Position numbers and translations under genes: made by a program | Shown here: positions 4,351 to 54,504 of the stretch, one piece after another | How positions within the stretch are numbered: position 1 is the stretch's first letter | How the letters are laid out: each line of letters starts with the position of its first letter | The notes under the pieces: model-generated | Databases searched by the model: none | Seen by the model: the letters and a program-made list of their open reading frames with translations, nothing else | Told to the model about the DNA's origin: nothing | From: Candidatus Didemnitutus mandela | Lineage (GTDB): Bacteria; Verrucomicrobiota; Verrucomicrobiia; Opitutales; Opitutaceae | Reading direction: 5' to 3' | Assembly: GCA_002591725.1 (NCBI GenBank) | Contig: NJAL01000005.1 | Span: 62,001 to 126,000 of the forward strand | Length of the DNA stretch: 64,000 bases

Positions 4351-7300
4351 ACCATTTCCCCCTACACGGCCACTCTCTGAACCAGCTGCGTCTTCACCAC
4401 GTTCGTCGTCTTGTTTATGCTGATGGACTGGCGTGATGAACCTGGTAAAATCTGTGCTAGTGCTCAAGGGCATGATGGAACTGGGATTTTTCCAGGGGAT
4501 TATCACCAGCATCGATCTGGCGTTTTTGGCAGGAATTGCCCTGTACTTGTACCTGATCCTGTGCAACGCCGGCTTCGGATTGTTGATCATCAGCGGTTTC
4601 TGGGTGGCAATGGCGGCGACAAACTTGAGCGTGGGCGAACCTTTCCCCACATGTGCTGTGTTCCGACTTACCTTGTGAGCCTATTCTGAGCCGGGCTCAG
4701 GCTACGCTGCGTGTTGCTCGGCAGCCTAACGTCTGAGGCTCGATGCCAGGTTGCTCCCTTGGCTTTTGTTCCGGGCTTCGAGGCTAAATTTTACCCGGGA
4801 ATCCGATCGATAAAACGGTTATCTTTCTACGGTCCGAGTCCGTCTTTTAGTGCGTTTCAATCTTCGGGGCAGAGCGCCAGATGCCACATTCACAAAAACA
4901 CACCGCCGGGTTCCTAGCATGTGTAGAGCGCGACATTTGTCAAATATTTCACACACAATGACCATGGACGCCCCATGCAGGTCGATTCTTAGACGGTCCC
5001 GAAGTTGTGCATGATGAATGCTACTAGCCATTGCCCACTTGGCGCGCCGTGATCGGTCGGCTTCGGCTTTAGCTTGCACCAGGTCAAATCCGCAAGCTCG
5101 CTAAGCAAGGTAGCACAAAAGCGTGGCGACAATCATCGTTTAGATGAACTATTGTCCGAGGTGTTTTTCAAGGTTCTGCGTTCCGCTCCGCAGGATGGTA
5201 AAATGTACTACCGGCCCTTCCTGACACTTTTTAGCCTCTTGGGATTGCCCATGTCTTTTGCGTTATTGCAATTTATTGAGATTACGTAGCGGCTGGACAC
5301 GGGGTTGGCCGGCGTTGATTTCCGTGCGGATGACGCCTTTGTTGGAAACAGCGTTATGTGTCGCTGTCTTGGTATTCTAGAAATCTAAAAAGGACAAGGG
5401 AACTGATAGCGAACATACTTACGGAGCTAACTACGATCGGCAGCCACAGCAAAAATAAAACCTGCATGACGGAGAGAATTTGCGTTATGATGGGTGTGCA
5501 GAACCGGCCGGAGTCTTTTAAGTCCGCTGTTTCCAATCACCCCTATTTATGACCACGCTTAGCTTGGCTTCGCTATCTTTTGCGCCATCCAATAGGGCAG
5601 TGTTAGTCTTCCCCTAGCACAATCCGTGTTATATGGGGGCCACCATGTTTACTGTTTCGGGTTGTCGTTTTACCCTCCTTGCTTCTGCGCTTGACTCGCT
5701 TGTCCTTGTGCTGCCATCCGCGCCATTCACTCCAGGCTATTTGTTGGTGACCGACGACGTCACCTCTCCCGCTCGGCTGGGCGCCCGAACTCGCTCAAGT
5801 TCGCTCTAAGTCCTGGGCAGCCGTTACTTGGGCTCTCGATCAATCTCGTCGGCTTTTGCGGCTCGCCCGCCCTGCTTGGTCACGAAACAACCCTTACCAA
5901 ATCGCTCGGTCTGACTGTGGAGGTGCCCTACTTCGAATCCATCCCATGCAGTTGGCCGACTACGTTTTCCGCCTGGATCTTGCAGACCCTACGTCTAGCT
6001 GCCGACCAAGGGTGAAATCTATCACCGTGGCGCTGTCGCGCCGGGCTGCGACAAGCCGCTTCACATCGCCGATGGCAATTTCGTGAAAAATGACGCGAAA
6101 GAGCACCCGGGAATCTATATTTTGATTATATCCTAGTCGAGAAACTGCATATCCTTCTCGATCTGTTCTGTGCAGGAACCGAGATGGGATTTAAAGCCCA
6201 ACAGTTTGCCCTGAAGAAGGGGAAGGAGTCCGAGGACGAATAGTCAGAGATCTTTGCCGAAGAGGAAGTCACGATCGGCTTCCACGCCAGGCCAGGGCGA
6301 AACAGTCGTCCTCCCGTTGGCGACGCTGGGTCCGGGGAAATTATCCTTCCGTGTGTGCTCCATTCAAAACCGGACCGGGTGGTACCAGTTACTGGCTTGC
6401 GTTGTTCTCGGCAGGCACGTGAACCTCCTCTTGCTCTTTCTTTTTCCCGGTGGTGGCGGCCGCGCCTTCGCGCTGCTGATCATCCTGATCGTTTATCTGC
6501 TCGGTGGTTTTTGCCGTCGGCTGTGACATTTTTGTTTATTCATTACTAATAGGGCTTAGTAGGGCGACGTGCCAGTCTTTATAGACTATAGACTGACATG
6601 TTATGTTTTGGGGGATCACCCAAACAAAAGCGGTGGAGTTTAGGTTCACCTGCTACTGGTCGCCGTCGGCCGGATGACCTCTGGCTTAATTGTTGTTGTA
6701 GGCATTCTAATTCTACTGAATCTTTTCGCTAGCGTGCTCGCACATCCTCTCCGACTCCATGAATGGTGTTGGCAGCCTGAGAGGATCATTGTTCCCAGGC
6801 TGAAGCTAGCGGACCGCAAACGTGACCGTATGTTACGGTACGGTAGGATTTCATGGCAGAAATGACGTGCATGGAATTTGGTGCGAAAAGCGGACAAAAT
6901 ATCCGACTGCCGCCAGCTTGTTGCAGCGCGGTTTCTCTAGTCAGCGGATAGGTTGCCGATTACCGCTTCCCTGACAGCCCGCGACCCCCCCGTGCCAATT
7001 CCCTTATCGCCTATCCTAGCTGTGAGGCCGGGGTGCCCCTTTACATGAATTCCATCTGTCCCGATTCGTGGGCCGCCGGGCGGCTTGCACAACACCGGCT
7101 CGCTGGAGGAGTCGCTCAAAGCGCAATCGTCGCTTTCCCTCGAGCTAATCATAATGCTCCAGCTCGACAGTGGGTAAGCGCTAGCGCAATTTTTTGATCA
7201 AAAGAAGTCGAGTTCGGTAACGCGTCGCTTGTCGGGCGAAAACCTCGGCAACATGGGTAGGAGAAAGACGCCGAGCTTGCGATCGGCTGCGCTGTACAAA

Positions 7301-8631: not shown

Positions 8632-11600
8632 CTATCCCTTTATCTTGTCGAACTTGATCGATAGCATGCGGGAAACGCCGCGTTCCTGCATCGTTACACC
8701 ATAAATCACGTCGGCTGTTCCGATCGTGTTTTTATTATGCGTGATGATGATGAACTGCGATTCGTTAGCGAATTGCTTCAGCAGATTCGTGAAACGATCG
8801 ATGTTCGACTCGTCGAGCGGTGCGTCAAGTTCGTCCAGCAAGCAAAATGGTGACGGCTTCACCATATAGAGCGCAAAGAGTATCGCTACCGCCGTGAGGG
8901 TTTTTTGGCCGCCGGAAAGTAGGGTGATGCTCTTCAGTTTTGTTCCTGGGGGCTGTGCTACGATCTCAATGCCACTCTCTAGTGGATCGTTAGCGGTGAC
9001 GAGTTCAATTTCCGTGCGGCCGCCGCCGAAGAGGATGTTGAACGTGTAGGAAAAGTTTTTACGAATCTGCTCTAAGGTGCCCTTGAACTGCTCGGACGAT
9101 GTGCGGTTGATATCATCAATCGCCTCGAGCAAGTGCGCCTTCGCATTCGTGAGGTCGTCGTTCTGGTCCTTGAGAAACTTGTAGCGCTGCTTCAGCTCCG
9201 AGTACTCCTCGATCGCTACGGGATTGATTGCGCCCATGCTGCCGAGGCGCTGACGGAGTGCATCGACTTTCGTTTTGACCTCGGTCCAATCCGTATTGTC
9301 GAGGGCGGCAAGATCGGCCTCGGTCGGGTTCGGCCTTGTTTTTTTTTTCTGGCACTTCGGTTTAGATTCGGTCGCGGGAGCATCTTCGATTGCGACCGAT
9401 GTTTCTATCGCCGTTGGTTCGAGCAGAGCGCTGAGTTCCAGCTGCCCTCTGTCTTTTTTCTCGTTCAAATCGAGCTCCTTGATTTCCTCCGGTTCGTCGT
9501 CAGCATGCCAGAGGAGGTTTTTCCAATCGAGAGCGGAAACTTTGCTTTGAAATTCGCGCGCAATCTCGTCAGCGAGGAATTGGGCGCGGGCGCGCGTCTC
9601 GGCGACCTTAACCTCGTTGCGTGACAATTCTCCCATTGCCGATTCAGCTTCGCTCCGAATCGAGTCTAGACTGGTTTCGTAATCTACGATTTTCCCTTCT
9701 ACCTCAACCAGCTTTACGGAAATACCCTCCACATTTTTCTGGGCTGCCTGCAACGTGGCGGCGATTGACTCGATTCGATGCTGCTGTGCCCGGCTTTCCT
9801 GCTCGAGCTGCGCAATCTGTTCCGACCAGGTTTTGATTTCGATCTGGTGTTGGTCGTGCAAATCGAAAAACCGCACTCGGCGGTGCTCTATTTCGCTGAT
9901 ACTGCGATCCAGCAATTCCACCTTTTGTCGACGTTCGGCGAGTTCGATGCGAGCTTGGGCCAGTGACTCCTTCTTTAAGTCGCGATCTATGCGTTTCTCG
10001 TTGATCGATGCTTCGATCTCGGCGATGTGTTGTTTGCGCACAGTAATGGCCGCCTCCGCCTCCGCAAACTGGGCCTGCGCCTTCGCGAGACTGGTAAGCG
10101 ATTCCTTGTGGTTGCGCTTGAGATTGCTAAGCTCGTTCTCCATGCGGGCGAACCGGCTTTCCTCTTCTTCGCGCGATCGCTGGGCGTTCTTCAGCTCGGT
10201 GGTAAAGGCCGCGGTGTGTTGCGAAGCGATGAGCATGTCTTTGCGCTGCTGTTCAAGTGTTTGTTCGGCTTCGTTAAGCACATTATTGATCTGGTCAACC
10301 AATGCGCGTTGTTCGTTGTGCGCTGCCTGTTCGGCTACGACGGCCTTGCCGGCCTCGCGCAGATCGGCCTCGCGCTGAAGTAGACTGTTGTTGGGTTTCT
10401 TGTGATAACCGCCGAAAATTAGGCCGCGGCGGTCGACCAGATCTCCCTTTGGCGTTGCCACAAACAGGAAACTGAACGATGGATTTTCTTTCCAAAAATC
10501 CAGAAATGTTTGCAAATCGCTCGCCAGATAGCAGGCACTCAATAAGATATTCGCGGGATGTCCGTCGAGATTGGCGACCGCTGACGCGGCTGGCCGCAAA
10601 AATGCTGGTAATTCGACCTCATTTTCGACGTTCGTCTCATCGGTAGCGTGCACCTGCAGGTGCACGCTACCGATCTGCTCGCTTTCGAGCTGAGCGAAAA
10701 TTTTTTTGGCGATCTCGAGATCGGAAACCGTGATTGCTTCGACTGACGAACCGAGCAACGTCTCGAGAGCCTTTGTGTCTTCGAGCTTTACTTCGAGTCC
10801 TTGCGTGATCGGCGTAAATCTTTGGTCGCCCGCAGCGAGCCGGCCCGACAAAAGCGCCTTGGCGCCTTCGCCGAAGCCTTCCCACTGTTCCTGCAGTTGC
10901 TGGAATAACTTTAGGCGAGCAGTTTTCTGCGCGAGGCTGCGGTCGATTTCCTGTATCCGTCGCTGGGCTTCACGAGATTTTTGTGTCGCTTCCTGCAAAG
11001 CAGCCTGTTTGACCTGCACCTCGTTGTTGATTCGACTCTGGTCGGCACGCGCTTCTTCGAGACGCTGTGTAGCCTTTGCGATTATCGCGGAGGCTGCCTC
11101 GACGCCGGAGCTAAGGTGGCCGAGCTCGACTGTAAGCTGGTCAAATCGGCTCTGGCTCGTGCGCGCGTTGACTTCGAAGCTAAAACTGTCGGTTCTTAGA
11201 CGTGCGACGTGATTCCCAGCTTGTAATAGTTGAAAACGTTCCTGGCAGATCTGCTGTTCGGCCTTGGCTATCTCGCCCTCGACGACCGCGAGTTCGCGGT
11301 TGCGTTCCTGAAACGCGGCATCGGAACTGCCAAGAAGGCTGAGCTGGAGTTGCTTGTCTTGCACACCGATGTCGGCTTGCGAGGCGAGTTCCTTGATTTG
11401 CATCTCGAGTGCGGCAAGGCTATCTTTTGACTCATCGAGGCGCTCGACTAAGCTGTTATGGCGAACCTCGATGAGGCCGGATTGGTTTTTCGCTTGCTCC
11501 CGCTGCGAGCGAAGATCGAACACCGTTTGTTGTGCGTCCTGTAAGCGTTCGGCAAGCGAAGCGCGCTCGGATTTCTTCTCGCCAAGCGAACGCGTGAGCT

Positions 11601-12390
11601 CTTCCAACAAGCTGTGCCGAGCATCGGCTTCGCCCGATAGGCCGGATATGCGGCTCTCGACTTCGTTAAGCATCGTGCTGAGCTGTTTCCATTGATAACT
11701 GCCCTGGGCCAGCGCAAACTTGCGAAGCCGGAAGCTGAGGTGCTTGTAACGAATCGCCTTTGCGGCTTGGCGGCGCAGCGAGCCGATCTGGCGACCAACT
11801 TCATTGATGATGTCGGAAATGCGCGCTAGATTCTGTTCGGTCAGCGCTAGCTTGTTCATCGCCTCGCGGCGTTGGCTCTTGTATTCCGTGATGCCGGCGG
11901 CCTCTTCGAAAACAACACGGCGCTCCTCAGGCTTCGATGAGAGAATCTGGTCGATTTGGCCCTGCGCCATGATCGAGTAACTCATATGGCCGACGCCGGT
12001 ATCCATAAAAAGCTTGCGGATGACTTTCAGGCGGCAGGCCTGACCGTTGAAGAAGTATTCACCCGAACCGTCACGTTCGATGCGTCGCATGATTTCGATC
12101 TCGTGGAACTCGCTGCCGAGCTGCTTTTCGCAATTCGTAAACAGGAGCGCGACCTCGCACATCTGTGCGGGCTGCCGCGCGTCGGCGCCTTCGAAAATAA
12201 CGTCCTGCATCTTGTTACCGCGCAGGGCCTTCGCGCTCTGCTCGCCCAGCACCCAGCGGATAGCGTCGGCGACGTTGCTCTTGCCGCACCCGTTGGGGCC
12301 GACGATCGCGGTTACGCCCGGCTCGAAGTTGAGGGTCGTGTCGTCAGCAAAGCTTTTGAAGCTCTGAAGTTTGAGTGTCTTGAGATACAT
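8632..12390 (-). CDS. smc: Chromosome segregation ATPase SMC
   Basis: This 1252-residue structural maintenance of chromosomes protein forms a ring that organises and separates the chromosome, normally with ScpA and ScpB. The N-terminal ATPase half carries Walker A GPNGCGKS at residues 31-38. Long coiled-coil arms (about 170-500 and 690-1000) flank a hinge domain (about 510-680) recognisable by [11 protein letters not shown] and [12 protein letters not shown]. The C-terminal half has the signature [17 protein letters not shown] and Walker [15 protein letters not shown]; the usual Glu of LSGGE is Gln here. The start is the ATG before [14 protein letters not shown], the normal SMC N-terminus. 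There is no strong Shine-Dalgarno sequence. It stands alone between decayed regions, and its hinge contains an odd in-frame perfect palindrome (10639-10674). Confidence 0.97.
10639..10674. repeat. 36-bp perfect palindrome inside smc
   Basis: The 18-bp half ATCGGTAGCGTGCACCTG is followed directly by its exact reverse complement, with no loop. On the minus strand it is exactly 12 codons in frame (SMC residues 573-584, [12 protein letters not shown]) in the hinge. The symmetry stops sharply at both ends. It could extrude a cruciform in DNA or a long hairpin in mRNA. Confidence 0.97.
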
Positions 12391-17402: not shown

Positions 17403-17414
17403 GACAAAAACGAT

Positions 17415-18420
17415 AAGTTGTCAGTTTATGCTAACCGCTGCTGCGGCGAAAGCGAAATGTTATTTGGGTCAGATGACCCGGCGATCGATCCTATTCAACG
17501 TGCGACAGCCCGCGAACCAAATCGCCGTTTCCAACTCGATCCGGAGGATATTGATGACGTGCGCCACGCCGATCGTTCCGGCAACCACAAGCGGGTGAAT
17601 CTGGGATACCCGATTATTAGCTACTAGGTGTGTAGCTCGCGGGTTTTCAAAATGTCCGTTCCGCGACGAATACCACTTATCGACCAACAAGGGTATCCGG
17701 CCTGCGGCTTTGGACGACGGTCCGCGAAAAAACACCGATGGTTGCTAGCAAGGTATCGAGCGTTCGCCTTGCCGTGATTTGAAACGACGATGCTCGCTAC
17801 TCCTGTTTCTATAGCCAGGCAGTGCCGTCCGCTGGTAAGAAAATTCATTCAGGGTAATCGGCAACTGGACTAACGAGGCCAGCCAAACGATCCCTTCTCA
17901 TGTGGGCTCTTCTCTCAATAACCTGCCACACAACGTCGGTACTTGAAGGCTTATGGACGGCGCGTGGTGACGCATCTTGCAGATTGCCGGCATCCATGCT
18001 TGGTGACAGACGGAATTACATCCGTTGTTTGCAGGTGCGTCGACACCTGCGACCAGACCAACATCCAGTAGCCTGCCTTTTCCGCCTGCTCGGCTAGCGA
18101 ACAAGCGAGGCTACGGTCCATCTTCGAGTAAAGCTGAAACCAAGGTGGGTCGGCTACGTTGCTCTGGCGATTTTTCCCAGCGTTTCACTCGCGTGTGTGC
18201 TTGCCACAAACGGAGCGTGCGACGCTGCTGTCCTTAAAGATCGTCACGAACTTGCCTTTATCGTGCGCGATGCCTTTATCGTGCGCGAGTTCCGCGCTGC
18301 TCGTTCCGGAAAAATCTTCAAATACTTGCGATATCAATTTCAGATGAGCGAAGGCCGCTTCGCTCTCACCATAGCTAACTTCATCCGTCCAGGTACCGTT
18401 AAGATACAGGCCCAATCGCT
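17415..18420 (-). pseudogene. FMN-dependent 2-hydroxyacid oxidase relic (LldD/HAO-like)
   Basis: Read on the minus strand from 18415 downwards, the fragments AFAHLKLISQVFEDFSGTSS, LAHDKG, GYWMLV, LAIETGVASIVVSNHGKANA, SGIRRGTDILK, GRIPLLVD and GVAHVINILRIELETAIWF appear in the order of an alpha-hydroxy-acid oxidase (lactate or glycolate, FMN type). Relatives have KLIPRVLEDFSG, AGVAGIIVSNHGGRQLD, GGIRRGTD and RDELETAM. Frameshifts separate most blocks, and the catalytic His of SNHGGRQ is followed by altered residues. It lies just upstream of the intact GlcD-type oxidase on the same strand. Confidence 0.75.
18253..18288. repeat. 18-bp perfect tandem duplication
   Basis: TGCCTTTATCGTGCGCGA is present twice in direct succession (18253-18270, 18271-18288). 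It duplicates the LAHDKG segment of the dead hydroxyacid oxidase, giving ELAHDKGIAHDKG on the minus strand. Confidence 0.9.
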
Positions 18421-18429
18421 CGCATTGAA

Positions 18430-20640
18430 CTGCGCCCTGGCTGGTCCCTCGTAGTCAGCCAAAACGGAAAGCTTGGAAGGAGTTTATTTCAGGAACGAAT
18501 GCATGAAAACTCATGCTTCGAGCATCCAAACTTTCGCTATCCTCAGAGTTGGTCTTTTGTTCAGCTGGGCTCCGTTTCCGCCTATTTGGCGTAAAGCTTC
18601 ATTAGCAAAATTTTCTACCAGTCAGACACAGCCTCCTAGAAAACCTCACATGCCAGAAGCTGGCGATGTTTCGCTTTGAATGTTTCCTTCGTCCGACGAT
18701 ACTTGGGCTCTTTCCCATGATTTACATCCTGTTCATCACTAAATAATTTCAATACAAACCTGGCACTCATCACGAGATATTCGTTGCCGGATTCGAAATC
18801 GTCCGCGACCGGGATCCTTCTTCCTAAAATCAGCATGTTCGAACTCGCCGGACAGTCCGATGCCCACCCACCTGCTCGAAAGCGATACGACGACTTGCGC
18901 GGTGATGCAAAAATCGCTACTGCCAAGGGCCTTAGCCTATCCGTTTTTTATTCCTTTCGTCAAGCACATTACCGTAACACTCCTTCCACTGAGCGCAATC
19001 TCTTTGTCGAAGCCAGCTACGTCGTTGCCGATTGCTTGGGTTGCGGGTGATCGGCAACGAGGTGTGCAGCAAAATTTTTACGTTCCTCGGTTTCGGCTGC
19101 ATTTCCAAGAAATTCCGCTATTCATACTCGCGCGCTTTGGACGTACCCGCGCGCTTTGGTCTGTGGAATGCTGGTTTCGCGAATTATTGGGAGAGAATTT
19201 TGCTCGTTGGTATGATCTAAAATGGGGAGATGATCTCGAGAAGCCTTATGCCGCTTAAATTTGGCTGCCTAATCGCTAACGCTGGCACGTAGCAAGCTAG
19301 CTTATCCGATCTTGAGCTATTTGTTGAAGCCACCAAGGACGGAAAATCCGTTATTCCGCAGGCATGCTGGACGGGGAGCCGTTTCACCTGTTGCTCAGGC
19401 TGTCTGGTACCGTACCGGGTACGTGCTACCGTGCTCATTCCGCATACTAGCAAGAGTACTCTTGAGAGCGTTCAGCGTCAAGCCAGTTGCGCTGTCGAAG
19501 GTCTTACACTGTTCCTCGTCAGAAACGAATCTATCGCCCACGTGTTTTGACTCTCTTTCGTCTTCCCAAAGATTTTAACGCCCAATCCTTGCCCGACACT
19601 TGACACTTACAACATCGTCCTCAAAGCTCAAGAATATAACAATCGTTCAAGCTGCTTATCAGAATTGCGGCTGCGAGGCCGATAAAAATCCGCTTACTTT
19701 TACGCCGTGAGGCCTTCGTCTCACGGCATTTGCGCACACAACGGCATCAAAGCGCTGAATCTCAATCTCTTCTTGGCCCTGGCCCCAAGGACTGCTCCTC
19801 CGGAGAAAATCGAGGGCGGCGGTCCAAACTCGAGGCTAATAAAATCTAGAATGCCAACAAAAACTCGGCTAGTCGACCGTCTAAACAAATCGTATTGCTG
19901 CGCTCGCTGAGGTTGTATTCTTTTGACATGAAATTTTTCCAAGCTCGACACCAACTGAAACTCCTGTGGTTTCCAGCCCACTAGCGCCATCGGCTATCCT
20001 ATCGTGACGGACTGGACCGTATCCATTGTCACCATGAGTTATGTGCAACAGCCTCAAATGCGAAGGTAAGCAACAACAGCCCCTCGTTGCTGTGGACAAG
20101 GATGGATAATCCGATCGCCGACCAGAATCAAGCTGTTTCGCTGCTGCCCTTTGGCGTGCGCAAAGGCTACTAAGACCTTTCGCTTATCAAGGAGACCATT
20201 GACAGTCTCAAAGGCGGCTTGCTGCCGACCATCCGCAATTACTGCGGACCAAGTCTCTGGGAGCGACAAGGACATCTGCGATGTTCTTTATCCCAAGTAA
20301 TCCGCTCCAACACAATCAATTACTGCGTCTTTGCCAAGGGTCGCAGCCAAAAACGTGTAAACTATCTCTGACGGCGTGCTCGGCTACGAAACGAGAAATC
20401 CGATGATCCCTAGCTAGCTCGAAGCCAATTGGGCGAAGAAAACCACTGCTGTCGGCGGCTTTTTCTTTACCACTCTTTACCAAAGCTGAAACAGCAGCCA
20501 GTTCGTTGAACTGGCTGCCTAAAGCCGGAATAGCTTCTCTGATAGATCGAATCGTTCAAAACCTTCACGACCCAAGGTTTCCTGCTTGTTTTTGTTTTCA
20601 GCGCGCTCCGCGGAGCACACATTTTGCCTACGCTGCGGCT
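18430..20640. other. Decayed DNA, unassigned fragments
   Basis: No gene can be named. The plus strand has several alternately open frames between 18470 and 19580, including RYSLPDSKSSATGILLPKIS near 18775 and SDLELFVEATKDGKSVI near 19300. These read like real but shattered coding sequence. Around 20100-20270 DNPIADQNQAVSLLPFGVRK and SLKGGLLPTIRNYCG also look ancestral. A 12-bp direct repeat (CGCGCGCTTTGG at 19129-19140 and 19148-19159) is present. Confidence 0.45.
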
Positions 20641-20644
20641 GCTC

Positions 20645-21620
20645 AGACACGCATCATATCCTGCATCAGTTGCAACCCAGTTTCGATCCTATCTTCAAGT
20701 CGAGTTTCTCAATCCCGAGCATCGGAGTCCTTTCGACAACCTGTACCAGCTGCGGAATCCACAAATTCGGCAGGCCTGCTTCGGTCAGTTTTGCGCGCAA
20801 ATTTTCCGCTGTGATCTCCCGTGTTTTCAGCAGCATCCAACGCTTCGCTTTTGGGGCCGGGCTTGGCATACCAGTGGTTAGCACTGTCAGATTTTCGATA
20901 TCCTCCAGTTCGTAAATTTGGGTGATGGTTGCTTCGGCCATGTCGGGCGACACCATCTTGCTGCCGATTTTTGAAGGTGTGAAAGCCGGTCTTCGATATG
21001 GAGAAAGCCTTTGTCGAAGCGGAACAAATCGCTGGTGTAAAAATAGCTATCGCGCAAAGCGGCTGAAGTTTTTTTTGATTTTTCAAGGTAACCGCCAAAG
21101 ATACTTGCGTAGCAGAGCCATAATATACATGGTCTCACCGTTAGACAGCTCTTCCACTGTTTTTGAATCAACTATCCGAACCGGCATCGGCATGGCGAGG
21201 CCGACGATTCGCAGCACTAGCGACCTATCTCTTGCGCCGGCGACAGATTTTTCACGGTATGGCGATAAAGCTAGTCGCAACCAGAACACGGGACAAAACG
21301 GATGGTGGTAGCACAGAGCCTCGTGCCACCCTACCCTATATTACATAGGGGAGCTATCTGTATCAACCACCACCAGGCCTGTCAAAAGCCGTTGCAAAGT
21401 AATGGGTGCCCGCAAATACTGCGGGCAAAATCTGCTCGAGGAGACAAGCTAGCCTCTCGCCTACAATGCTGACAACATGAGCAGAAACCCCCTAGCATTG
21501 CTTTCTTCAGCCCGCGCAACACCATCTCCAGAAGGTTCAGGCCGAGTGATAGCATATTGTAGTATTGTTTTGAGAAAATCGGCGAATCTACGCTCTTTTC
21601 TTTTATAAAAAACAACTCGA
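20645..21620 (-). pseudogene. Acyl-CoA/acyl-ACP synthetase relic (AMP-binding, Aas-like)
   Basis: Minus-strand pieces match the C-terminal half of an adenylate-forming fatty acid ligase, as in the Aas acyl-ACP synthetase / lysophospholipid acyltransferase. They include LVLRIVGLAMPMPVRIVDS (about 21200), IFGGYLEKSKKTSAALRDSY (21070), FRFDKGFLHIEDRLS (20990) and MVSPDMAEATITQIYELEDI (20955-20897). ITAENLRAKLTEAGLPNLWI and VVERTPMLGIEKLDLK follow. These represent the A8 hinge motif (GDLxRxDEDGFLxIxDR) and the C-terminal lysine domain. The invariant hinge glycine/aspartate region and the final lysine context are altered and frameshifted. The acyltransferase half, if there was one, would lie around 21620-22500 but is not readable. 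Loss fits reduced recycling of external fatty acids. Confidence 0.7.
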
Positions 21621-22800
21621 CAAAAGTCTAGCTGGTATTAGCCGCCGGCTATCGCGATTGAAATTCCGGTGATCGTTGGCGGGTAAAGCCGTCTCCTTCA
21701 TTTTCTTCCATCTCAACAAGCCGCTAGCTAGAGGTAATCGCACAATCAGCGCAATGTCTTCCGAAAAGAGCTTGTGAATTGGTTTTTGCCGAAAAAATTG
21801 AAGATGACTTGCAGTAGCAGTACCCCGGCACAGCCCGGCTTGCCAACACGCCCATATGGCCTTGTCTATCGCCTCGATGCTACGAGGTCAAATAGACCTT
21901 GATTTTTCTATCTTGCTTCAGCTTGTCGAACCAGCCAAACAAATTTTTCAGCACTGTAGCAGAGAAGCTCAGTACGCAATGCAGCTGGGTGAAATTGAGT
22001 AAATCGATTCCGGGCCGAACGAGAACCCCCTGTGTTTTACCAGCACTGCGTGTGTGAAACTTTCTGGCCAGCTCGGATCCCTGTAGCGCCCGAGCTTCGC
22101 CGCGGCAAAACCCCGACTCGTCTTGCGACTCGAATTTCGCGATTAAATTTCTAGATGATACCTTTACTGTGCTTGTAACTATAAATGTCGGCCACGTCGA
22201 AAATCGTTCCTAGATTGTAGATTGCGAGCGTCCAGGAACGTGGCTAGCTTTTAGTCTTCTGTGACATTGTCCCAGCTCCTGCTAGGTATGCCACATACCA
22301 AGCCCGATTTTACCTACCGATCGTTTTATCTTTCCTAATGCGCTCCTTTGCATAAGGCGCACCGTTGCGCTTCCCCGAGCTCCTACAAGGACAAGCGTGC
22401 TGACTGTGGGACGATTAGCTCAAAAAAACGTGATCTTCGAACCTAGAAGTGCATGAAGAATTGCAGCAGGTTTTGACTAACTATCGTCCTGGTGATAGTG
22501 ATCGATCTCTTGACTTTTGGATAGATCCAGTTCGCCCCGCGTACCATCAAGAATTTTTAATTTTCCAAGGCATCTTTCCGTTTTTTCTCGGCCGGATAGG
22601 CATAAAAGTGGTTGTAAGTACATTCTGAAAGGTCTGGTTTTTTTTCAGAATAAATTGCCTTCCCCGAAGACAGAAAACTACATTTTAGAAACCATCAAAC
22701 TAAGTCCTTCAACTTAATGTTCAAGGATATTTTTCGGTTCAGTTTGATGCTGAGTTTCTTATATTTGATTTTGGTTAGCTATTGAATAGAATAAGTTAGT
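21620..22800. other. Decayed DNA, unassigned
   Basis: On the minus strand, LKNLFGWFDKLKQDRKIKVY (about 21960-21900) may belong to the upstream part of the dead acyl-ACP synthetase, but no motif settles it. From 22500 to 22800 the DNA is AT-rich and shows no protein-like frame. Confidence 0.4.
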
Positions 22801-25800
22801 TAACGATTACTGTATTGCTAACGACCTTTCCCATGGCCTCATTATCTTTACAAAAAAGCGCGTCGATTGCTCTACCCATCTCAGCTTTCTTCGGTCTTGT
22901 CGACAACTATCTCGCTCGGATACTTGAGTCCGCGAAAAATTCCGGAGTGTCTTATGAATTGAAGTTGACCGAGCGTGAGCTTCTCCCCGCTCTCTTTCTC
23001 CATAAATTGTAAAGGTGCCTTCAATCATAGGCTGTTTAGTGGCATCGAGTTTCCTTAACAGTTTGCCGGCGTCAGAGATCTGTGCACAAGAACTCGCTGC
23101 TGAGTTGATAGGGCTTGGCGCCTGCGACGAGCAGTATTGCTCTTTTGGCTGACAGTTTTTTTGTTTGGTTAAAGGTGGCTTCCAGCCTCTGTAGGCTAAA
23201 CTTGTTTTGCTTCGGCTCCAAAATTTTCATTCACCCACGTTATCGACCAACCTTGCCGTGCGTGACAAATTCCACTTCGAGGGGCTACACAGTACCAGTA
23301 CCCTGCGAAGCATTCGAAAACGGTTTTGAATCTGCCTCGAGGGTCGCCTGAGTCAAAGTGGTCACTGGGGTTCCGGAGAATTAGGACCGAATGAATCTAC
23401 CGGAAACACCTAGCACATTCGTCAGAAAATAGCACAGCATCAAGCTACATATGACTACTCATTATCTTTGCCACGAAGTTCATGTCATCGCCTTTGGTGC
23501 GTGGCTGGAACGGAAAGATTCACGCTGGGGCGCCCACTGGCTATGTCGAGCAACAGCGGCGCGTCGACGGCGACCGAACCGTCCTATTTTAGAATCGCTT
23601 GCAAGCTGGGTTCGTGGCCGGAAGCGCTTGATTTCTTTTCTGGGCAGCGAGTCCGTTTAGCGTGGCTTGTTCCGAGGATTTTCTACTGCGTCAGCATCAG
23701 CTGTTGTGTGGAGAGCGAAAGGGGCGAAATTGAAGACTAACGAAGTGCACAATCCTATTGCCGTTTGCGTAGTCCCTGCTGTAAACTGACCAATGGTGGC
23801 TTGTTAGCGCTCGACAAGCGCTATCTCGTTGCTCGTGAAACGGGCTAGATTAGATTCCGTTCCGTAACCTACCACATTTGGTGCGAGGATGAAAGAAACG
23901 TTTGAGATGGCCGTTTTCTTTTGCAGTTGAGATAAAAGCTCGTCGAAATCCAGTGATACTCTCGTTTACAGGAAGAGTTCATCTCTTTGTCCTGCGATTG
24001 GGAAAACCACGCCTGGGAGATTGTAGGCCAAATCCATTTCCGTGCGCAGAGGTAGCAGCGAAGCTAGCAAGATCTGCCAAAGGGTGATACGCGCAAATTC
24101 CGTCTCATTGTCTGTCGCCACTTTTATTTGTAGTTTGTCGAGGTCGAGAGAAAATGGATTATTAGAATCGATATTTACCAAGGGCTGACTTTTGGCACCA
24201 ACCAAAGCTAGCTTCAGATTCTGTACGGACAACGTTGTCTTTTTGCAACTGCAGTCTAGCGCTGCTGCAGAAATTAATATCCAATAGGAGCGAAAGCTAC
24301 AGTAAAGTGGATAAATCGATTTCGTAGCTCGCTTGTCCCGAGATCGAGCCCCGGATCAGTAAGAACCATTCCTATGGTCATCGTTTCCTTGATGGAATCG
24401 ATTTCCGGTGTTGCCAAGGAAAACTGGCGGACTTGGGCCTAAAGGTGGAATAGCGTAATTGGGGCTTCTAAACTGAACGCTGCTTGGATAAGCGCTATCA
24501 GCGAACGAGCATCCTGGACAAATGTCAGCGAATTGATTTGTAACGGCGCGATGGTGCCGCGCGGTTACGGTTTTACCTTCGCCGGGAATCGAAAAATCGT
24601 CCGTCAGTTGGCTACCGAAAACACCGACCACATGCACAAATGGTCTTGTCCAAACAAGCGATATCTCTTGCAACTGCTCTGTCTCGTTTGTAATATCATC
24701 TCGACCGTTAATGGATGGTTGAGCAGGTCGAAGGTAATTCGCACATTCTTGCGGAGAGGCGAGGACTGGCTTATCTTCGGTTGCGGAAAGATCCAGGTTG
24801 GAAACACAGATCTTACCGGCGTCGACTGCCAGATCGAGTCTGCCTTGAAACCTCAGCGAGCCCAATATTCGCAGCCCGGGATCGAGGGCCTCAAGCTTGT
24901 CGGCGTCCGCTGCCGAGCTTCCCTTTATTGCTGCGGCCCCCGTTGTGGGACTAGCCGTGAAATGGCCCGAACTGGTAGCCTCGAATTTGGATAACCGGCC
25001 TATCATGACAAACAACGATACCAGAACGGAAATAGATTGAAAAGCCAATGGCCACTGTAAGCCTTTCCACCGGGATCTTGACGTTGACGATAAAAAGATT
25101 TTTTCGTGGCGCCGCAAGCTATTGGGCGGAACTCTATATCGTGGTAGTTATCCAAGTATGGTCGAAATAGTTGGCCGCTGTTTCGCGAAGCTGAAGTGAA
25201 AGATTCGTCCGCGTGCTGAAAATTTGGACAAGGGGCGGCGGGGTGGAAAACTTGGTGGTCTTGATCGTGCCCTCGCGGCTTGGTGCGATGTTACGATCGG
25301 ATAAATTGAGTTGTTTCTCGATTGGCGGGCGAACCGGTGCGCCTGCGAAGATCGCCATTGTCCTCAATGGCAACTTTTCCGACTTTGAACGAAAATGAAC
25401 CGCAACTGACCAAGCGCGCCAAAAGCGGCCGTCGGTCCCGCCGAGGTACTGCGGACGAAGCAGCGGGAACACTGTTGTCAGTCAGGGACTAGTTAGCAAA
25501 AGCGCGAAATTTTGGACAGAAATTGTTTTTCCGAAAAGACAAGCGAGTGTTGAGTAGGCGGAATCGAGTGCCGCAACACGGGAGGAGACATTTTGATAGA
25601 TAGTGCGGACGTTGCGTAAAACCGCGGTGCACATGTCCCAGCACCAATGCGATTAGCCTCGAGTTTCCGGCCAGGTTGTTGGTTGGCAGCGCGCAAAACT
25701 AGCGAGTGTCGGAAAGTAGGTGTTAGCGCTACACCAAAGGTGGTAACTACGAGGGCAAACAAAGCGCCTAAATTGATCAGCAGTAGACTGAGCAGCTTCA

Positions 25801-25801
25801 T
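22800..25801 (-). pseudogene. AsmA-like envelope protein relic
   Basis: The likely original start is at 25801, with an N-terminal membrane anchor (MKLLSLLLINLGALFALVVT) after which the frame breaks. Downstream pieces on the same strand read like a very long, low-complexity beta-rich protein. They include LGSLRFQGRLDLAVDAGKI and VSNLDLSATEDKP (24890-24780), WTRPFVHVVG (24640), LKLALVGAKSQPLVNIDSNN and LDLDKLQIKVATDNETEFAR (24220-24080). IEGTFTIYGERE lies near 23020. Such an anchor plus repetitive beta region of about 1000 residues is typical of AsmA-like proteins involved in envelope or lipid transport. The family call is tentative; death by multiple frameshifts is clear. It follows the dead TolC relic on the same strand. 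Confidence 0.5.
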
Positions 25802-25839
25802 GGAGACGCAACTACTACACAGAAACTAGAAATAAATTA

Positions 25840-27280
25840 TTGGGCAGAATCCGATTGCGATACTCTTTCTTCTCCTAGATTTTCGCAAAGAGCCGGAGGC
25901 AATACGAATAAAAGCTTCGCTTACAGCGAGGAATATTTGATTGCACTCTGTGGTACCGACTTGCCCGTTAGGTCCATGGCCTGACGAACAGTCCCGATGG
26001 CAATAGTGTAGGTGTAATAGGCCTGAAGCTGGTTGCACTTTGCTGTGACCAGTGCGGTTTGCGTCTAGAACATATCCAGCTGGGTGTGCATGTTGGCTGC
26101 GAAGCGGGCGCTAGCTAGACGAACGCTTTCCTCTGCTTCCTGGAAGGCCGAAAGCGAACGGCGAACGTCAGCGGCGAGCTTAGATTCAGCGAGGGACAGC
26201 TTGGTTTGCTCCAACAGGGAACGAGTGACGCAGCAGACTTTGTCAGCGGCAGTAAGAGACCATCGAAGATCGGCTAGTATGGTTGCAGTCCGGCTAGCTT
26301 CAACTGTGGCTTTAGCCGGAAATAGTGTCGTTGTTGGTGCGTTTTTGTGGTCTATGAACATTCTCCGAAGGTTAGAAAACGTTAGCTTGTAGGCGATGCT
26401 GGTCACCTAGAATCTCCTGCTCTGCTGCGGTCGTTAGTTTTTCAACCATTTCAGATCGCAGATCGGAACGTTGGACGCGGGCCGATTCGAAATCGATGGA
26501 ACCGAGAGACTCCGGCGTCTTCGTTGCTGTCTGCTCAGAAGCGTTAGCGAAGCCGAAGGTCTGATGGAGTTCTTCGATGACAAGGCGATGCGATAGTTGT
26601 TTCTGGCGTCAATCAGGGGACTGCGTGTTGACGAGAGCAATCTCGTCGTGAAGCACCTCGAAGTTGGAGATGGTGCCGGTGGAGAGCCAGGTTTTGATGT
26701 CCTACGGTTGGCACTCGAGCAACGCGACACTCTTCTGCTGGACTTGGATATGCTCTCGATCGACGAACATGGCGTAAAGTTTTTTGCGGATATCGAACAG
26801 CGCGTAATTGATAACCAACTGTAGTTCCAGTGTGGTGCCCTCAAAGTTGAAACGCTATTTTTTTGATATTAGCGACGACGCTACCGCCGGCATAAAAGGC
26901 TTTGCATTGCGGTGATTTTAAATGGTTACGACCGATCTTCACTGCTGGAAAGCACGTCAGGGTTGTTTGTGCTGATAAAGTGTTGCATAGCGAAAACTAT
27001 GCGGGATCACCGAAATCCAAACTTTTAAAAGCACGCCTTGTTATCCGACGGATCTCTTTGCGGGCCTGACGAATCGCGGAATTATTATCGTCGTTTAGGC
27101 CAAAGCATATGGTAAGATAAACCCGGTCGGAAATCGGAAAACCTGGGTCCGGCTTGCCGTCGTTAAACTATTAAACTAGGCGATCACAGGTTTAACTAAA
27201 AAACTGGCTGCCGCGATAATCAGAACTTTCGAAAGCATAAACACTTTCATAAAAAAGGCTACTTGGTCGGAAGCGGCTGG
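25840..27280 (-). pseudogene. TolC-family outer membrane efflux protein relic
   Basis: The minus strand yields, in order, LVINYALFDIRKKLYAMFVD (26820-26762), HIQVQQKSVALLE, TGTISNFEVLHDEIALVNTQ (26680-26620), RNNYRIAL, LGSIDFE, LSLAESKLAADVRRSLSAFQ and RLASARFAANMHTQLDMF (26130-26070), and TALVTAKCNQLQAYYTYTIA. The alternating heptad-like helices with the FxxGxxSNFEVLxAExALxxAxxxL pattern are characteristic of TolC-family outer membrane factors. Stops and frameshifts interrupt each block. It sits immediately downstream of the RND pump relic. No intact TolC is present in this window. Confidence 0.7.
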
Positions 27281-27289
27281 ATATGGACC

Positions 27290-29280
27290 GATAGATAGGC
27301 TTAATCAAATAAATGACCCTGGGAGCTGTTTTTTGCAAGAAGCATCATATTAGGAAACTAGGAAACCAAAAAGAGCGTGAAGGCCGTGTTCGATGGACAT
27401 TACCAACGACGAGCACCAGACCGATGGAGTTACCGCGGGGCGGCGCTAGCCGCCGGTCACCAAGGAGAGCTGGGAAACAGCTGGAGCTGGAAACCGTGAC
27501 GACGGTGGCCATGCGTACCCCGGCGGAGCCGGGATCATGGCCGCCGTCGTAAAAGGTTCCAAATTTCGATTTTCTTTTTAAAGTTTGTTGTCGAACTCGA
27601 CGATTAGAATGCTGTTTTTCGGAATGAAGCCAGCCAATTGTTAACGCCCACCTTGGCATAGATGTTCAGGATGGCCGCCAGACACTGGTTCCAAACGGTA
27701 TGTTTCAGATTTGGCATTTTGAGGGCAGTAAAGACTAAGTGCACAGAGCATGGCGAGTGCCACCGAGCAAAACGGAATTATTAGGGGGACCAGGACGAAT
27801 CAAACTGTGCAGTTAGTACTTAGTGTTAGGGGAATGGGCACGATGGCCGATATCAAGGCGGGAGTTAGCTTATTGCTCTCATTCTGTAGCTGCCGAGATT
27901 TTTTGGTGTAGCCGACGGCATATAAATAATCGGGTAGGCAGGATCTGGTAAGCTACTTTTGCGAACGTCTAAGGGCTTGGTCGAGTGTGCGGTTGGTCAT
28001 GCGGGAGAGCTTTACGGCATTCAGCTGGCTGGAAATTGTTCAGTGAATTCGGGACGGTCTTTGGATATGAGCTACTGAGCTGACCGGAATCAGCTGATTG
28101 TTCGATCCGGTAATTAGGTGCCCTCGAGCTGGCTTGGGTTCAGCCGCTGGGAACGCTCGATCTGGGGAATGGTCGTTAGTAGGTAGCTATAGCCGAGGAC
28201 GTTGAATCAATTGATGCAGCTACCAGGCACAAGACCGGCGCCAATTCGATAGAGGTTTAGACCCAAAGTCGCGACCTTTTCGCGATCGATCACCACTTCT
28301 GTTTGCGGCTAATTGTATTTCAGGTCGATCTGCGGCGGGGGAAACAAGTATGCACGCTTTGTCCCAGGCTTGGCCATTTCAATAATTGATTTTCGCTCGC
28401 AGTCGAAGTGATTATAAAATTGATTTGGAAGTTCAAACTACCGGGCAAAGCCGAGGAAGTGGTTCCAGAAACCTCAAAGCCAAAATACGTGGATTTTTGA
28501 AATCTTTTGCTGCACTTTTTGAGGAATCTGAAAAGCATTGTACTTCCGCGGTGCGTGTCAGAGCTTTACCACCTTACCGAAGAGCCATCCACACACCTGC
28601 ACTCACGGAAAGTAGCAGCAGGATTTGGAATGTTACGTCCACTTTAGGCACCGAGAGTGTCGCTTGCTCTCGGGTCCGACCGTAGAGTAGTATCCTTTGG
28701 TTAGCCGTAGAGTTCTTAGGAACACTGATGACACAAGAATGATGCCCTTGGCCTTCCGGACGAAGTGAGCTCCTTGGGCGAAAACATATACACATATACA
28801 AAACATATACATTGGAATCCGCTAACAAACTGGCCACAATTTAGAGGGGATAAACAAACAGCGGGGAGTTAAGCGTTCCAGCGAGCATACGACCATAAAC
28901 AGTTTTGCAGCTTTTCGAAACGACAGTTTTCGATCAAGCTACTCAGCTGTGCTGCGCAACTGGTTGGCCGGATATCATCGGCGAAAGCAATCAGCGTTAC
29001 GATACCGGAAATTATCGCCACGCCAGGACGAATTTATAGAAGAGGCGTTCCCCCCGTGAGCTCCCCTAAATGTGTATCGTGACCTACCCCACCCACAAGT
29101 TTCACGTTGGCACTGACATAGATCGTCGTGATTTTGATCGTGGAGTTTTCGATATCGGTGTGCAGATAATGGCGGCTGTTCAACGAGAGCCACGCCTGAA
29201 TGCCTGCGATAACCATCACGAGGTTTACGACGACTGCAAGAAGCGGGCGACGGATGGTGAAAGAGGTCGGTAAAAGCTTT
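27290..29280 (-). pseudogene. RND multidrug efflux pump relic (HAE1/AcrB-like)
   Basis: The N-terminus is seen at 29220-29090 (VMVIAGIQAWLSLNSR, IENSTIKITTIYVSANVKLV), which matches the first helix and the usual VKITT(V/A)Y start of the first periplasmic loop. Further downstream on the same strand come PEGQG and VPKVDVTFQI (28740-28600), SGTTSSALPGSLNFQINFII (28465-28400), VVIDREKVA and LNPSQLE (28300-28120), IYAKVGV (27670) and TTAAM (27490). A full RND pump is about 1040 residues, but the whole relic fits into 2 kb, so large internal deletions have occurred. It belongs to a dead adaptor-pump-TolC cluster. Confidence 0.7.
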
Positions 29281-29559
29281 ATTTATTTACTGGATATGCG
29301 CGAACGCGCCAAAGAGCGCGCCGCTTTGTAACGGTGGGTTCACAACGGCTCAGGCTTTTTACGGAGTGGGGGGTGAAGTTTCGCATTAGGCGCGAAAGTG
29401 TTTATTGGGGGTCACGGAGTTATACTGGGGGGTAGCTTGATAACGTCACTAGCTCTACCATCTGGCCACGTCCGTCTCCAATCCAGAGATAACTGTCACA
29501 AAATCACCTGCGTTTTTCCTAGGCAAACGAAGCATTTATAGAGCACTTTTCCGATTTTC

Positions 29560-30480
29560 TTCTTCTCTCTGTCAATAATCACAAATGCCGAATTTCCGTA
29601 GGGCGCGTAGAGCAAGGGATGGCGGAAATCGCGAGAGCTTTACGGCTATCCGGAAGCGTCACATTTATGTTCGCGGGCGCGAAGTTTTTCGGCTTTGCTT
29701 TTTGTTGTCGCTTAAACTCGCACTTATTGGTGGCAGCAAATGCGATTTCGGTCGAGATCGCATCAGTCTTGTTGTCGAAAATTACTCTGGGTGCGGCGTT
29801 TGTGGCCATAATTCACTACTAGTTCCTTCCTTGAAAACTAGCAGGTGTGCTTGTTGCTAAAGGAGAAAATTGATGTAGATAGGGTCGAAAGTCTGTAGGG
29901 GACCGCGAGATCACTGGCGCCGTTGGACAAAATCTGTCCGACTGTTAAAGAGCCGAAGTCCAAAACATCCGTCAAAAGGCGCGCGGGTTCTTTTCTTGGC
30001 AATCGTCGCTTTAAAGTTTCAGCGTTCCTCTGGATCTATTTCTATTGGGCGTTGGTGGCATCGAAATCTGTTTTCGTGGTGGTTTCGTTTTCCAGTAGGG
30101 TCAGAAAAGCCGACCGCGGTTGGCTTTGGCAAGAGAGGACTTTGTCTCCGTGGCACGGAGTCGGGCTCCTTGCAAGGTCGTGTCGGGCTGGATTAGTGGG
30201 ATCTCACTTTTTCACGTGACTGTCGGATTCTGAATGCGATTTTCACTACTTTTCCGGAAGAATTTTGCCCCCATTGTCATTCCTTGGAAAGCGGAAATTG
30301 CGGCCGATCAAAGAGATGGCGTTGACTAGGTCTCTTGTTTTACTCCTATTGAAAGTTGCCATTTATGTGGGGGTTGCTATCGCTATGCCTATCGAATTGT
30401 AATTTTTAGTCCTGTAGAGGGTAAAATGATCGCAAGGGTAAGCGATACTGCGACGTAAAGTTTATTTAAAATGGCGATAG
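29560..30480 (-). pseudogene. RND periplasmic adaptor (membrane fusion protein) relic
   Basis: Fragments on the minus strand include FQGMTMGAKFFRKSSENRI (30290-30230), SEIPLIQPDTTLQGARLRAT (30200-30140), SSLAKANRGR, DSRKALAISA (29650) and INTFAPNAKLHPPL near 29370. They correspond to the lipoyl/hairpin region (DPLIQLDTTLQEAQLRAAEA, LAKANRDR) and the C-terminal barrel (LTIPATALTYAPYGN) of RND adaptors. The order of adaptor, pump, TolC on the minus strand is the classic efflux operon, and all three are dead. Confidence 0.6.
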
Positions 30481-31019
30481 GGGGTGGGGCTGCAATGGGT
30501 CTTGAAGAGTAGAGTAGCTTCGAAGGGGAATAAGTTAAAAAAGAGGATTGGGCAGCGTAATCGAGGTTTGGTAAGTTTTCAACAACGGTTGGTCGAGAGG
30601 AGAGTTTTGTGCTCAGCTGCGTCCAAAGGGGAAAGAGGTTCTATTCGTCGAAAATGTCTCGGCAGGATTGGCGCAAGCAAGGTCGTGAGTTCCACACGCA
30701 TTACTCTTCGCTTATGGGATATCTCGGCTTCGTATCTTATTTACTAAGCCACCGTCCTCCAAAACGTCGACAAAACCAGTCATCGTGGTCCGAGTAGCAC
30801 GACGGGCTCTGGTTTTGGAGTTGCGCTAAGGTTGGGTTTTGTTTTATTGGCCGTTGATAAGTTCCCTACAGCTACATTAGAATTAAAATAGTGAAGGCCG
30901 GGTGAAAGTTTCTTTTCCTCCAGATATTGTTCGAAATATTGTGCTGCTTCGTTTCCGAGCCGAGCCCGCAAGAGGTGAAAGTTGATCCCCACAGCTATCT
31001 GCTTAATTGACTCAGAAGT
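30480..31019. other. Decayed spacer downstream of tkt
   Basis: No gene is recognised. A minus-strand 70-codon frame at 30780-30992 (LGNEAAQYFEQYLEEKK) is helical in character and could be the end of a lost gene, but it has no support. Confidence 0.35.
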
Positions 31020-53211: not shown

Positions 53212-54504
53212 ATGTCCGTTCCTCTCTGGATTCAAAATGGCCGCGTCATCGACCCAGCCAATAAGCGCGACGAAGTAGGCAACCTTTTTTCCATTAATGG
53301 AAAAATGGTTGCCAGCCTCTCCACCACCCAGAAAAAATCCGCGAAAAAAATCGATGCTTCGAGGTTAGTAGTATGTCCAGGCTTTGTCGACATTCACGTT
53401 CATTTCCGCGAACCCGGCCAGACCCACAAAGAGACTATTTTTACCGGTTCCCAAGCGGCCGCTGCAGGCGGCTTTACCACGGTTGTGTGCATGCCCAACA
53501 CGTCGCCGCTGGCCGACAACGCTGGCACAATCGAGTTGATCAAAAACGCTGTACGCAAAGCCATTGTTCGGGTGTATCCCACCGGCTGCATTACGGTTGG
53601 TACGAAAGGTCAGCTTCTGGCGCCGCACGGCTCGCTCAAAAAGGCTGGTGCGGTAGCGCTGACTGATGACGGCCTCTGCATCCAATCGAATGAGGTAATG
53701 TGCCGTGCGGTCCAATACGCGAAGATGTTTGGCCTTTCTGTGCTCGATCACTGCCAAGACGAGGCGATGACGCAGGGCGCCGTGATGAACGAAGGTGTCG
53801 TTTCCACCCGCCTCGGCCTCCAAGGCTGGCCGCATGCCGCCGAAGACATCATCGTCGCTCGCAACATCATTCTCTCGTCAGTCACGGGCGCGCACATCCA
53901 TCTTCAGCATATTTCTTCGGCTAACTCGGTCGAACTCGTGCGTCGTGCAAAAAAAGATCGTATCGCCATCACCGCGGAAGCGACGCCGCACCACATTGCG
54001 TTCACAGAAGAGAAACTGGGCGATTACGACACGAACTACAAGGTTAACCCTCCGTTGCGCACCGAAGCTGATCGGCAGGCGATCATTGCCGGCCTGCGCG
54101 ACGGCACGCTTGATTGCATCGGCACCGACCATGCACCCCATACGCTGGACGAGAAAAATCGCGAATTCGATTACGCGCTCAATGGCATTCTTGGCCTTGA
54201 GACGGCCTTATCCGTCTGTCTTCAGGTTCTGGCGCGGGAAAACAAATTCAAACTCCTCAAAGTTATCGACCTTTTCACCCGCTCCGCCGCCGAATTGCTC
54301 CGTCTTCCGGCTGGAACTCTGAGTGAAGGCGCTGCTGCCGACATATGCCTCTTTTCCCCCGATGAGGTTTGGACCTATCATGCTGATAAAGGTTTTTCCA
54401 AGTCCCGCAATTCGCCGTGGAGTGGCCAGTTGCTTACCGGCCGGGTAAAAAAGACACTCGTCGGAGGAAAACTGGTGTTCGACAAAGGACGCATCATCGG
54501 CTGA
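53212..54504 (+). CDS. pyrC: Dihydroorotase (class I)
   Basis: PyrC closes carbamoyl aspartate to dihydroorotate. The 430-residue protein is a class I amidohydrolase. The first metal motif is DIHVHFREPGQTHKETI (about residues 59-75), followed by AAAAGGFTTVVCMPNTSPL. The middle has DHCQDEAM and the histidine pair in THIxLQHIS form (AHIHLQHISS). The third metal motif is GTDHAPHT (about 304-310). The start MSVPLWIQNGRVIDPANKRD is one base after the pyrB stop; the longer upstream reading lies wholly within pyrB and is rejected. Confidence 0.95.
   Translation: MSVPLWIQNGRVIDPANKRDEVGNLFSINGKMVASLSTTQKKSAKKIDASRLVVCPGFVDIHVHFREPGQTHKETIFTGSQAAAAGGFTTVVCMPNTSPLADNAGTIELIKNAVRKAIVRVYPTGCITVGTKGQLLAPHGSLKKAGAVALTDDGLCIQSNEVMCRAVQYAKMFGLSVLDHCQDEAMTQGAVMNEGVVSTRLGLQGWPHAAEDIIVARNIILSSVTGAHIHLQHISSANSVELVRRAKKDRIAITAEATPHHIAFTEEKLGDYDTNYKVNPPLRTEADRQAIIAGLRDGTLDCIGTDHAPHTLDEKNREFDYALNGILGLETALSVCLQVLARENKFKLLKVIDLFTRSAAELLRLPAGTLSEGAAADICLFSPDEVWTYHADKGFSKSRNSPWSGQLLTGRVKKTLVGGKLVFDKGRIIG

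Follow-up and report, generated by a model that had tools for sequence, protein, structure and literature searches.

A perfect palindrome in the smc gene of "Candidatus Didemnitutus mandela" as the probable scar of a polymerase template switch

The window, by which we mean the whole stretch of 64,000 nucleotides analysed here, carries on its minus strand a full-length smc gene for the chromosome segregation SMC ATPase (8632..12390). The open frame of 1252 amino acids is intact, its product exceeds the Pfam cut-offs for SMC_N (residues 2–1240) and SMC_hinge (residues 527–605), and an alignment over residues 1–1252 was obtained with many relatives. Within the hinge lies a perfect loopless palindrome of 36 bp (10639..10674, no strand assigned). 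Its arms of 18 nt each (10639–10656 and 10657–10674) are 100% complementary, with 18/18 pairs and a loop of 0 nt. On the minus strand, smc codons 573–584 read ATC GGT AGC GTG CAC CTG CAG GTG CAC GCT ACC GAT.

The palindrome can be divided into an outer arm, a core and a second outer arm, all read on the minus strand. The outer arm ATCGGTAGCGTG (10663..10674; codons 573–576, IGSV) is conserved in its residues and is the putative template. The 12-bp palindromic core CACCTGCAGGTG (10651..10662; codons 577–580, HLQV) also encodes conserved residues and is the putative seed. The other outer arm, CACGCTACCGAT (10639..10650; codons 581–584, HATD), lies in the variable linker and appears to be derived, as the candidate product of a switch.

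An earlier note on this DNA had described a perfect loopless palindrome in smc that covers exactly 12 codons of the SMC hinge, and had considered it longer than chance would give in 64 kb. This description agrees with our results, since the palindrome falls inside the hinge match and only ~9 × 10−7 loopless arms of at least 18 nt are expected by chance in 64 kb. The position on codon boundaries is real but worth little; by our reasoning it is roughly a 1-in-9 coincidence (~1/3 for the centre and ~1/3 for the arm length). Across the 291-kb contig, exact arms of at least 12 nt with loops of 0–8 nt were found at 23 places, a count in which nested loops of one palindrome are tallied separately, against a mean of 0.4 in ten simulated first-order Markov runs.

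Residues 573–580 were compared with 119 relatives, the listed best of 834 protein-search matches. The residues encoded here were found as follows: I in 86 relatives, G in 119, S in 119, V in 117, L in 119, Q in 116 and V in 80, while the position of the first His of the palindrome is occupied by C in 113 relatives and by H in 6. The next columns (581–584) are variable among the listed relatives. The earlier note had allowed that relatives might encode identical residues through ordinary drift; none of the 119 has H at residue 581. Judged from these alignments, the first arm and the centre of the palindrome are conserved codons, and the outer second arm is unlike that of any of the 119 relatives.

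The same picture was obtained from the DNA of 16 smc loci, chosen from 11 congeners and 5 others. Among these 16, L018 and L095 are identical over the stretch. Pairing across the palindrome centre amounts to 18/18 here versus 4–10/18 in the aligned DNA of these 16. For instance, the congener locus L091 reads ATC GGC AGC GTG TGC CTG CAG GTG, followed by unrelated codons. The loci L079 and L084 were dropped, as their linker is not covered, and L083 ends before the linker. In these cases two contigs of one relative's metagenome-assembled genome have their broken ends to either side of this part of the smc hinge, and the contig of another such genome begins there.

Homologues within the genus reach up to ~70% identity to this SMC protein, with a best segment of 71% over part of the protein, and the top other protein-search match has 69% identity over the searched region (best 120 of 834 listed). 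No SMC relative above ~71% identity was found in the genome collections and among the best 120 of the 834 protein matches; in these collections each species is represented by one genome and near-identical records may be missing, so closer kin may exist. Hence, the event discussed below is one that we infer, and no sequence from before it, nor any intermediate, was seen.

How the second arm came to complement the first can be judged in part from the length of the linker, counted from V to LP. It measures 13 residues here and 10–14 residues in 118 of the 119 relatives (10 in 1, 11 in 64, 12 in 32, 13 in 20, 14 in 1 and 19 in 1). A length within the range of the relatives points to replacement of existing sequence rather than to an insertion of 18 bp. 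The earlier note had proposed a template-switch event, in the form of an inverted duplication, tolerated by the hinge. Our results support the template switch at a tolerant site in the hinge, as a homogenisation of the arms in place; they do not support the inserted duplication of 18 bp, and the alignment with relatives does not reveal residues 573–584 as an insertion. A variant of this idea would be that a fold-back inverted duplication inserted 12–18 bp of new DNA and that a deletion in the linker trimmed it later. The linker of 13 residues is indeed at the long end of the distribution. Yet, a clean gain of 12 nt would require an earlier linker of 9 residues, which occurs in 0 of the 119 relatives, and any other gain would require a second, compensating event. 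We regard this explanation as unlikely. In some Opitutaceae (L038, L067, L070 and L077) the hinge linkers are much longer, with 123–195 nt over a stretch that measures 96 nt here, and the linker therefore tolerates much change.

Ordinary substitution drift might also have produced the complementarity by chance, given the freedom of the linker to vary and the natural self-complementarity of some neighbouring codons (CTG CAG, CAC/GTG). However, only ~2 × 10−5 loopless arms of at least 18 nt are expected by chance in 1.07 Mb. Extending the 12-bp core to 36 bp requires 12 further matching pairs, for which simple arithmetic gives ~6 × 10−8 by drift. We consider chance drift highly improbable. An assembly or sequencing artefact could be suspected, as one assembly alone carries the palindrome (P0001: one member sequence, one contig). 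Against this, the frame of 1252 amino acids is open, relatives have matching residues in the first arm and centre, the linker has a normal length, and the 2 × 101 bp reads of the published assembly would span 36 bp. We consider an artefact very unlikely.

A template switch is in our view a quite probable origin of this single-copy, lineage-specific palindrome: the DNA polymerase would have switched template at a short palindromic seed, with 12 bases of the conserved arm being copied into the hinge linker. A change from Cys to His (TGC to CAC) might first have created the seed CACCTGCAGGTG. As the DNA was replicated, the growing 3' end in CACCTGCAGGTG would have annealed to the seed's other copy, and extension along ATCGGTAGCGTG would have given the reverse complement CACGCTACCGAT of 12 nt, with copying presumably directed from the conserved arm to the linker arm. 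Synthesis would then have switched back, leaving four linker codons replaced (HATD). The frame may have survived because whole codons were exchanged in a freely varying linker, and fixation would probably have occurred by drift in a small symbiont population. The step from TGC to CAC depends on a separate assumption and weighs against the template-switch account. So does the finding that CCTGCAGG is present in only 5 of the 16 relatives' DNA rows. The His variant at the Cys position is found in 6 of the 119 relatives.

The mechanism itself is already known. Quasipalindrome template-switch mutations (the Ripley model, the thyA hotspot of E. coli and coding genes of yeast) resemble the smc palindrome in that one arm is turned into the complement of its partner and adjacent residues change. 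In line with products of this type, the arms in smc are exact reverse complements, and one arm is ancestral while the other is derived in its own lineage. In E. coli, imperfect palindromes are reported to be made more perfect by template switching (PMC7202029). In yeast coding genes, template switching is described as homogenising the arms of palindromes, mostly with changes of one or two codons and up to five neighbouring residues (PMC8604942). The present palindrome of 36 bp, with a putative tract of 12 nt, differs from these in size, and also in that the event was not itself observed. A likeness is further found in nematomorph mitochondria, where perfect inverted repeats are reported within functional coding genes, as in smc here, and for which the authors consider conversion or template switching (PMC6649704). 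The nematomorph palindromes are described as numerous and up to 284 bp long, versus 36 bp here; in the smc palindrome, codon positions 2 pair with positions 2, which corresponds to phase 2 as that study defines it (PMC6649704). Among the matches listed in our literature search, we recognised inserted palindromic elements and the yeast and mitochondrial cases, and no report of template-switch palindromes in a reduced symbiont. The smc palindrome shows in readable form how several codons of a core chromosome protein may be rewritten by a single replication slip. Template-switch mutations are said to be easily mistaken for positive selection (PMC8604942).

An alternative explanation would be the in-frame capture of a small mobile palindrome, either a REP of the GTAG type, mobilised by a RAYT transposase, or an element like the Rickettsia palindromic elements. 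Both are small palindromes that are able to sit in frame in genes, like the smc palindrome. The motif GTAG is indeed present at 10643–10646, with its complement at the opposite end, but its gene-strand counterpart coincides with conserved Gly-Ser codons. GTAG REPs are reported to be abundant in Opitutus terrae and may sit inside genes (PMC3733652), and congeners carry REP-like repeats (the label REP is our own). These elements are, however, multi-copy insertions, whereas the smc palindrome is single-copy and appears to replace sequence. The central 30 bases have no second copy within 3 mismatches in their own draft genome, and are found at this threshold in 0 of the 251 other genomes of the family (1 of 252 with the own genome included). 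The search elsewhere that the earlier note had suggested, made with these 30 bases, thus returned one site only. Likewise, no exact match of 28 bases was found in viral contigs and no plasmid matched the palindrome. Y1_Tnp (PF01797), the family of RAYT transposases, had no match in the own draft genome while 12 of the 12 congeners matched; neither the multiple copies nor the Y1 transposase of a REP/RAYT system were found there. Moreover, the first half of the palindrome matches conserved codons, and no length was gained; the linker of 13 residues, within the 10–14 of 118 of the 119 relatives, shows no in-frame insertion of the kind made by a Rickettsia palindromic element. Mobile capture, which the earlier note had listed, is therefore strongly disfavoured, and we consider it highly improbable. 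Likely, the palindrome is a mutation scar and not a mobile element. An Rfam search of the window returned two tRNAs only.

In the sample of 1.07 Mb of the own genome (the whole of contig C6, the initial 420 kb of C3 and 220 kb of C5, and 20 kb from the start of each of seven others), one further stretch of 18 nt has 2 mismatches to one arm. It holds an exact match of 13 nt to the derived arm (C6:150582–150594). This stretch, at positions 4577–4594 of the piece C6:146001–166000 (L120), is probably a chance match. We rejected this region as the source of the second arm, as the complementarity to the first arm would stay unexplained.

It might also be argued that selection keeps the palindrome as a DNA site or an mRNA hairpin. 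The predicted fold is very stable, with a z-score of −6.7 for the RNA region and −20.3 kcal/mol for the DNA hairpin. Yet, any palindrome of 36 bp of such composition folds so, and the fold is not independent evidence; moreover, the palindrome was not found in relatives and has no second copy. The selected structure that the earlier note had put forward thus finds no support beyond the predicted fold itself, and appears highly improbable. We propose no function for the palindrome.

At the protein level, the model of the own hinge is poor at residues 573–590 (pLDDT under 50), while a model of a relative's hinge, built on the same 42 rows, lacks such a low segment and has a short strand in the conserved arm. 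The low pLDDT may reflect a disturbed loop or simply a less common sequence, and we did not use it as proof. In a sequence search of solved structures, the match to an SMC hinge (1gxj, 1gxl) extended no further than the first part of the palindrome, so that the linker was not placed.

The host, "Candidatus Didemnitutus mandela", is probably a genome-reduced tunicate symbiont. Its draft genome as used here has 2,171,216 bases in 10 contigs, with a GC content of 51.5% in contig 6. The published description reports a draft of 2.17 Mbp in 10 contigs with an N50 of 319.6 kbp, a GC content of 51.93% and a 108-kbp mnd contig, together with low coding density, pseudogenes, the loss of recB, recF, recN and recQ, and no annotated transposases (PMC5698493). 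Its main text makes no mention of palindromes, inverted repeats, hairpins, template switch or smc. Within the window, nearly 14 kb (~17403–31019) contain just two, overlapping, frames of at least 150 amino acids, which fits a decaying, pseudogene-rich genome.

The earlier note had argued that such a palindrome should be unstable, and we find this argument weak. Palindromes in E. coli generally become strongly unstable only well above 100 bp. Furthermore, SbcD was found above the cut-off in 0 of the 13 members of the genus, this genome included (three weaker matches were in other genomes, none here), so its absence is not special to this genome. RecJ and the large subunit of ExoVII (XseA) are present. 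The loss of hairpin or exonuclease genes was considered as a cause of a raised rate and rejected: SbcD is above the cut-off in none of the genus members, RecJ and XseA were kept, and no specific loss was found.

Other coding palindromes occur on the same contig. A second loopless near-palindrome of 36 bp (53278..53313, plus strand) lies on codon boundaries in a pyrC-like dihydroorotase gene, with the codons GNLFSINGKMVA; five of its residues (N, L, S, N, M) are shared by none of the 10 aligned congeners. A third, in a pyridine-nucleotide oxidoreductase gene, is found at contig position 179768–179810 (13768–13810 of the piece C6:166001–186000, L121) and has 18-nt arms with one mismatch and a loop of 7 nt; its residues are unlike those of the aligned congeners. 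Pairing is 17/18 at the pyrC site versus 7–12/18 in the DNA of 10 congeners, and 17/18 at the oxidoreductase site versus 3–12/18 in 11 congeners, although both sites were picked for good pairing here and the contrast is partly built in. Congener rows covered the site in 10 of 12 cases for pyrC and 11 of 12 for the oxidoreductase; the rest gave only paralogues or a part.

These palindromes are accompanied by a moderate genome-wide excess of loopless arms. Exact loopless arms of at least 12 nt number 9 in the 1.07 Mb of this genome (0.064 expected); the four congeners have 2 in 0.99 Mb, and the loci of relatives, 80 in all, have 1 in 0.78 Mb. The density is ~five times that of the relatives (9 in 1.07 Mb versus 3 in 1.77 Mb), in a comparison where the control stretches were hand-chosen, mostly near known matches and not random. 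The one-sided P is 0.010 with all controls, which are not fully independent as some of the 80 loci share their genome with a congener sample, and 0.043 with the four congeners only. For arms of at least 10 nt the counts are 18 here, 8 in the congeners and 3 in the relatives' loci (one-sided P 0.007 with all controls and 0.057 with congeners only). The excess outside coding sequence was left unused, as it is confounded in the controls by terminators between genes and by REP-like repeats.

Within coding sequence, as called by a crude gene caller that assigned 48% of the own sample as coding, five palindromes score at least 14 in 515 kb, versus a mean of 0.0 in ten codon shuffles; two of the five sit in short, doubtful frames of 102 and 43 amino acids. 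The four congeners have 0, 0, 2 and 0 such palindromes. The two belong to one congener (G007) and score 21–22, above the smc palindrome. Their words occur 11 and 13 times in a 200-kb sample, and hence they are probably REP-type repeats.

Possibly, though we would offer this only as a tentative and rather doubtful generalisation, template-switch mutagenesis is raised in this recombination-poor, genome-reduced symbiont and writes perfect loopless palindromes across the chromosome, including in essential genes, so that arm copying would contribute noticeably to protein change as the genome decays. Should the genome-wide excess hold up, template switching could be measured in decaying symbiont genomes. 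One of the nine loopless palindromes is a perfect one of 38 bp at C6:187847–187884 (positions 1847–1884 of the piece C6:186001–206000, L122), which lies outside called genes and has a terminator-like core.
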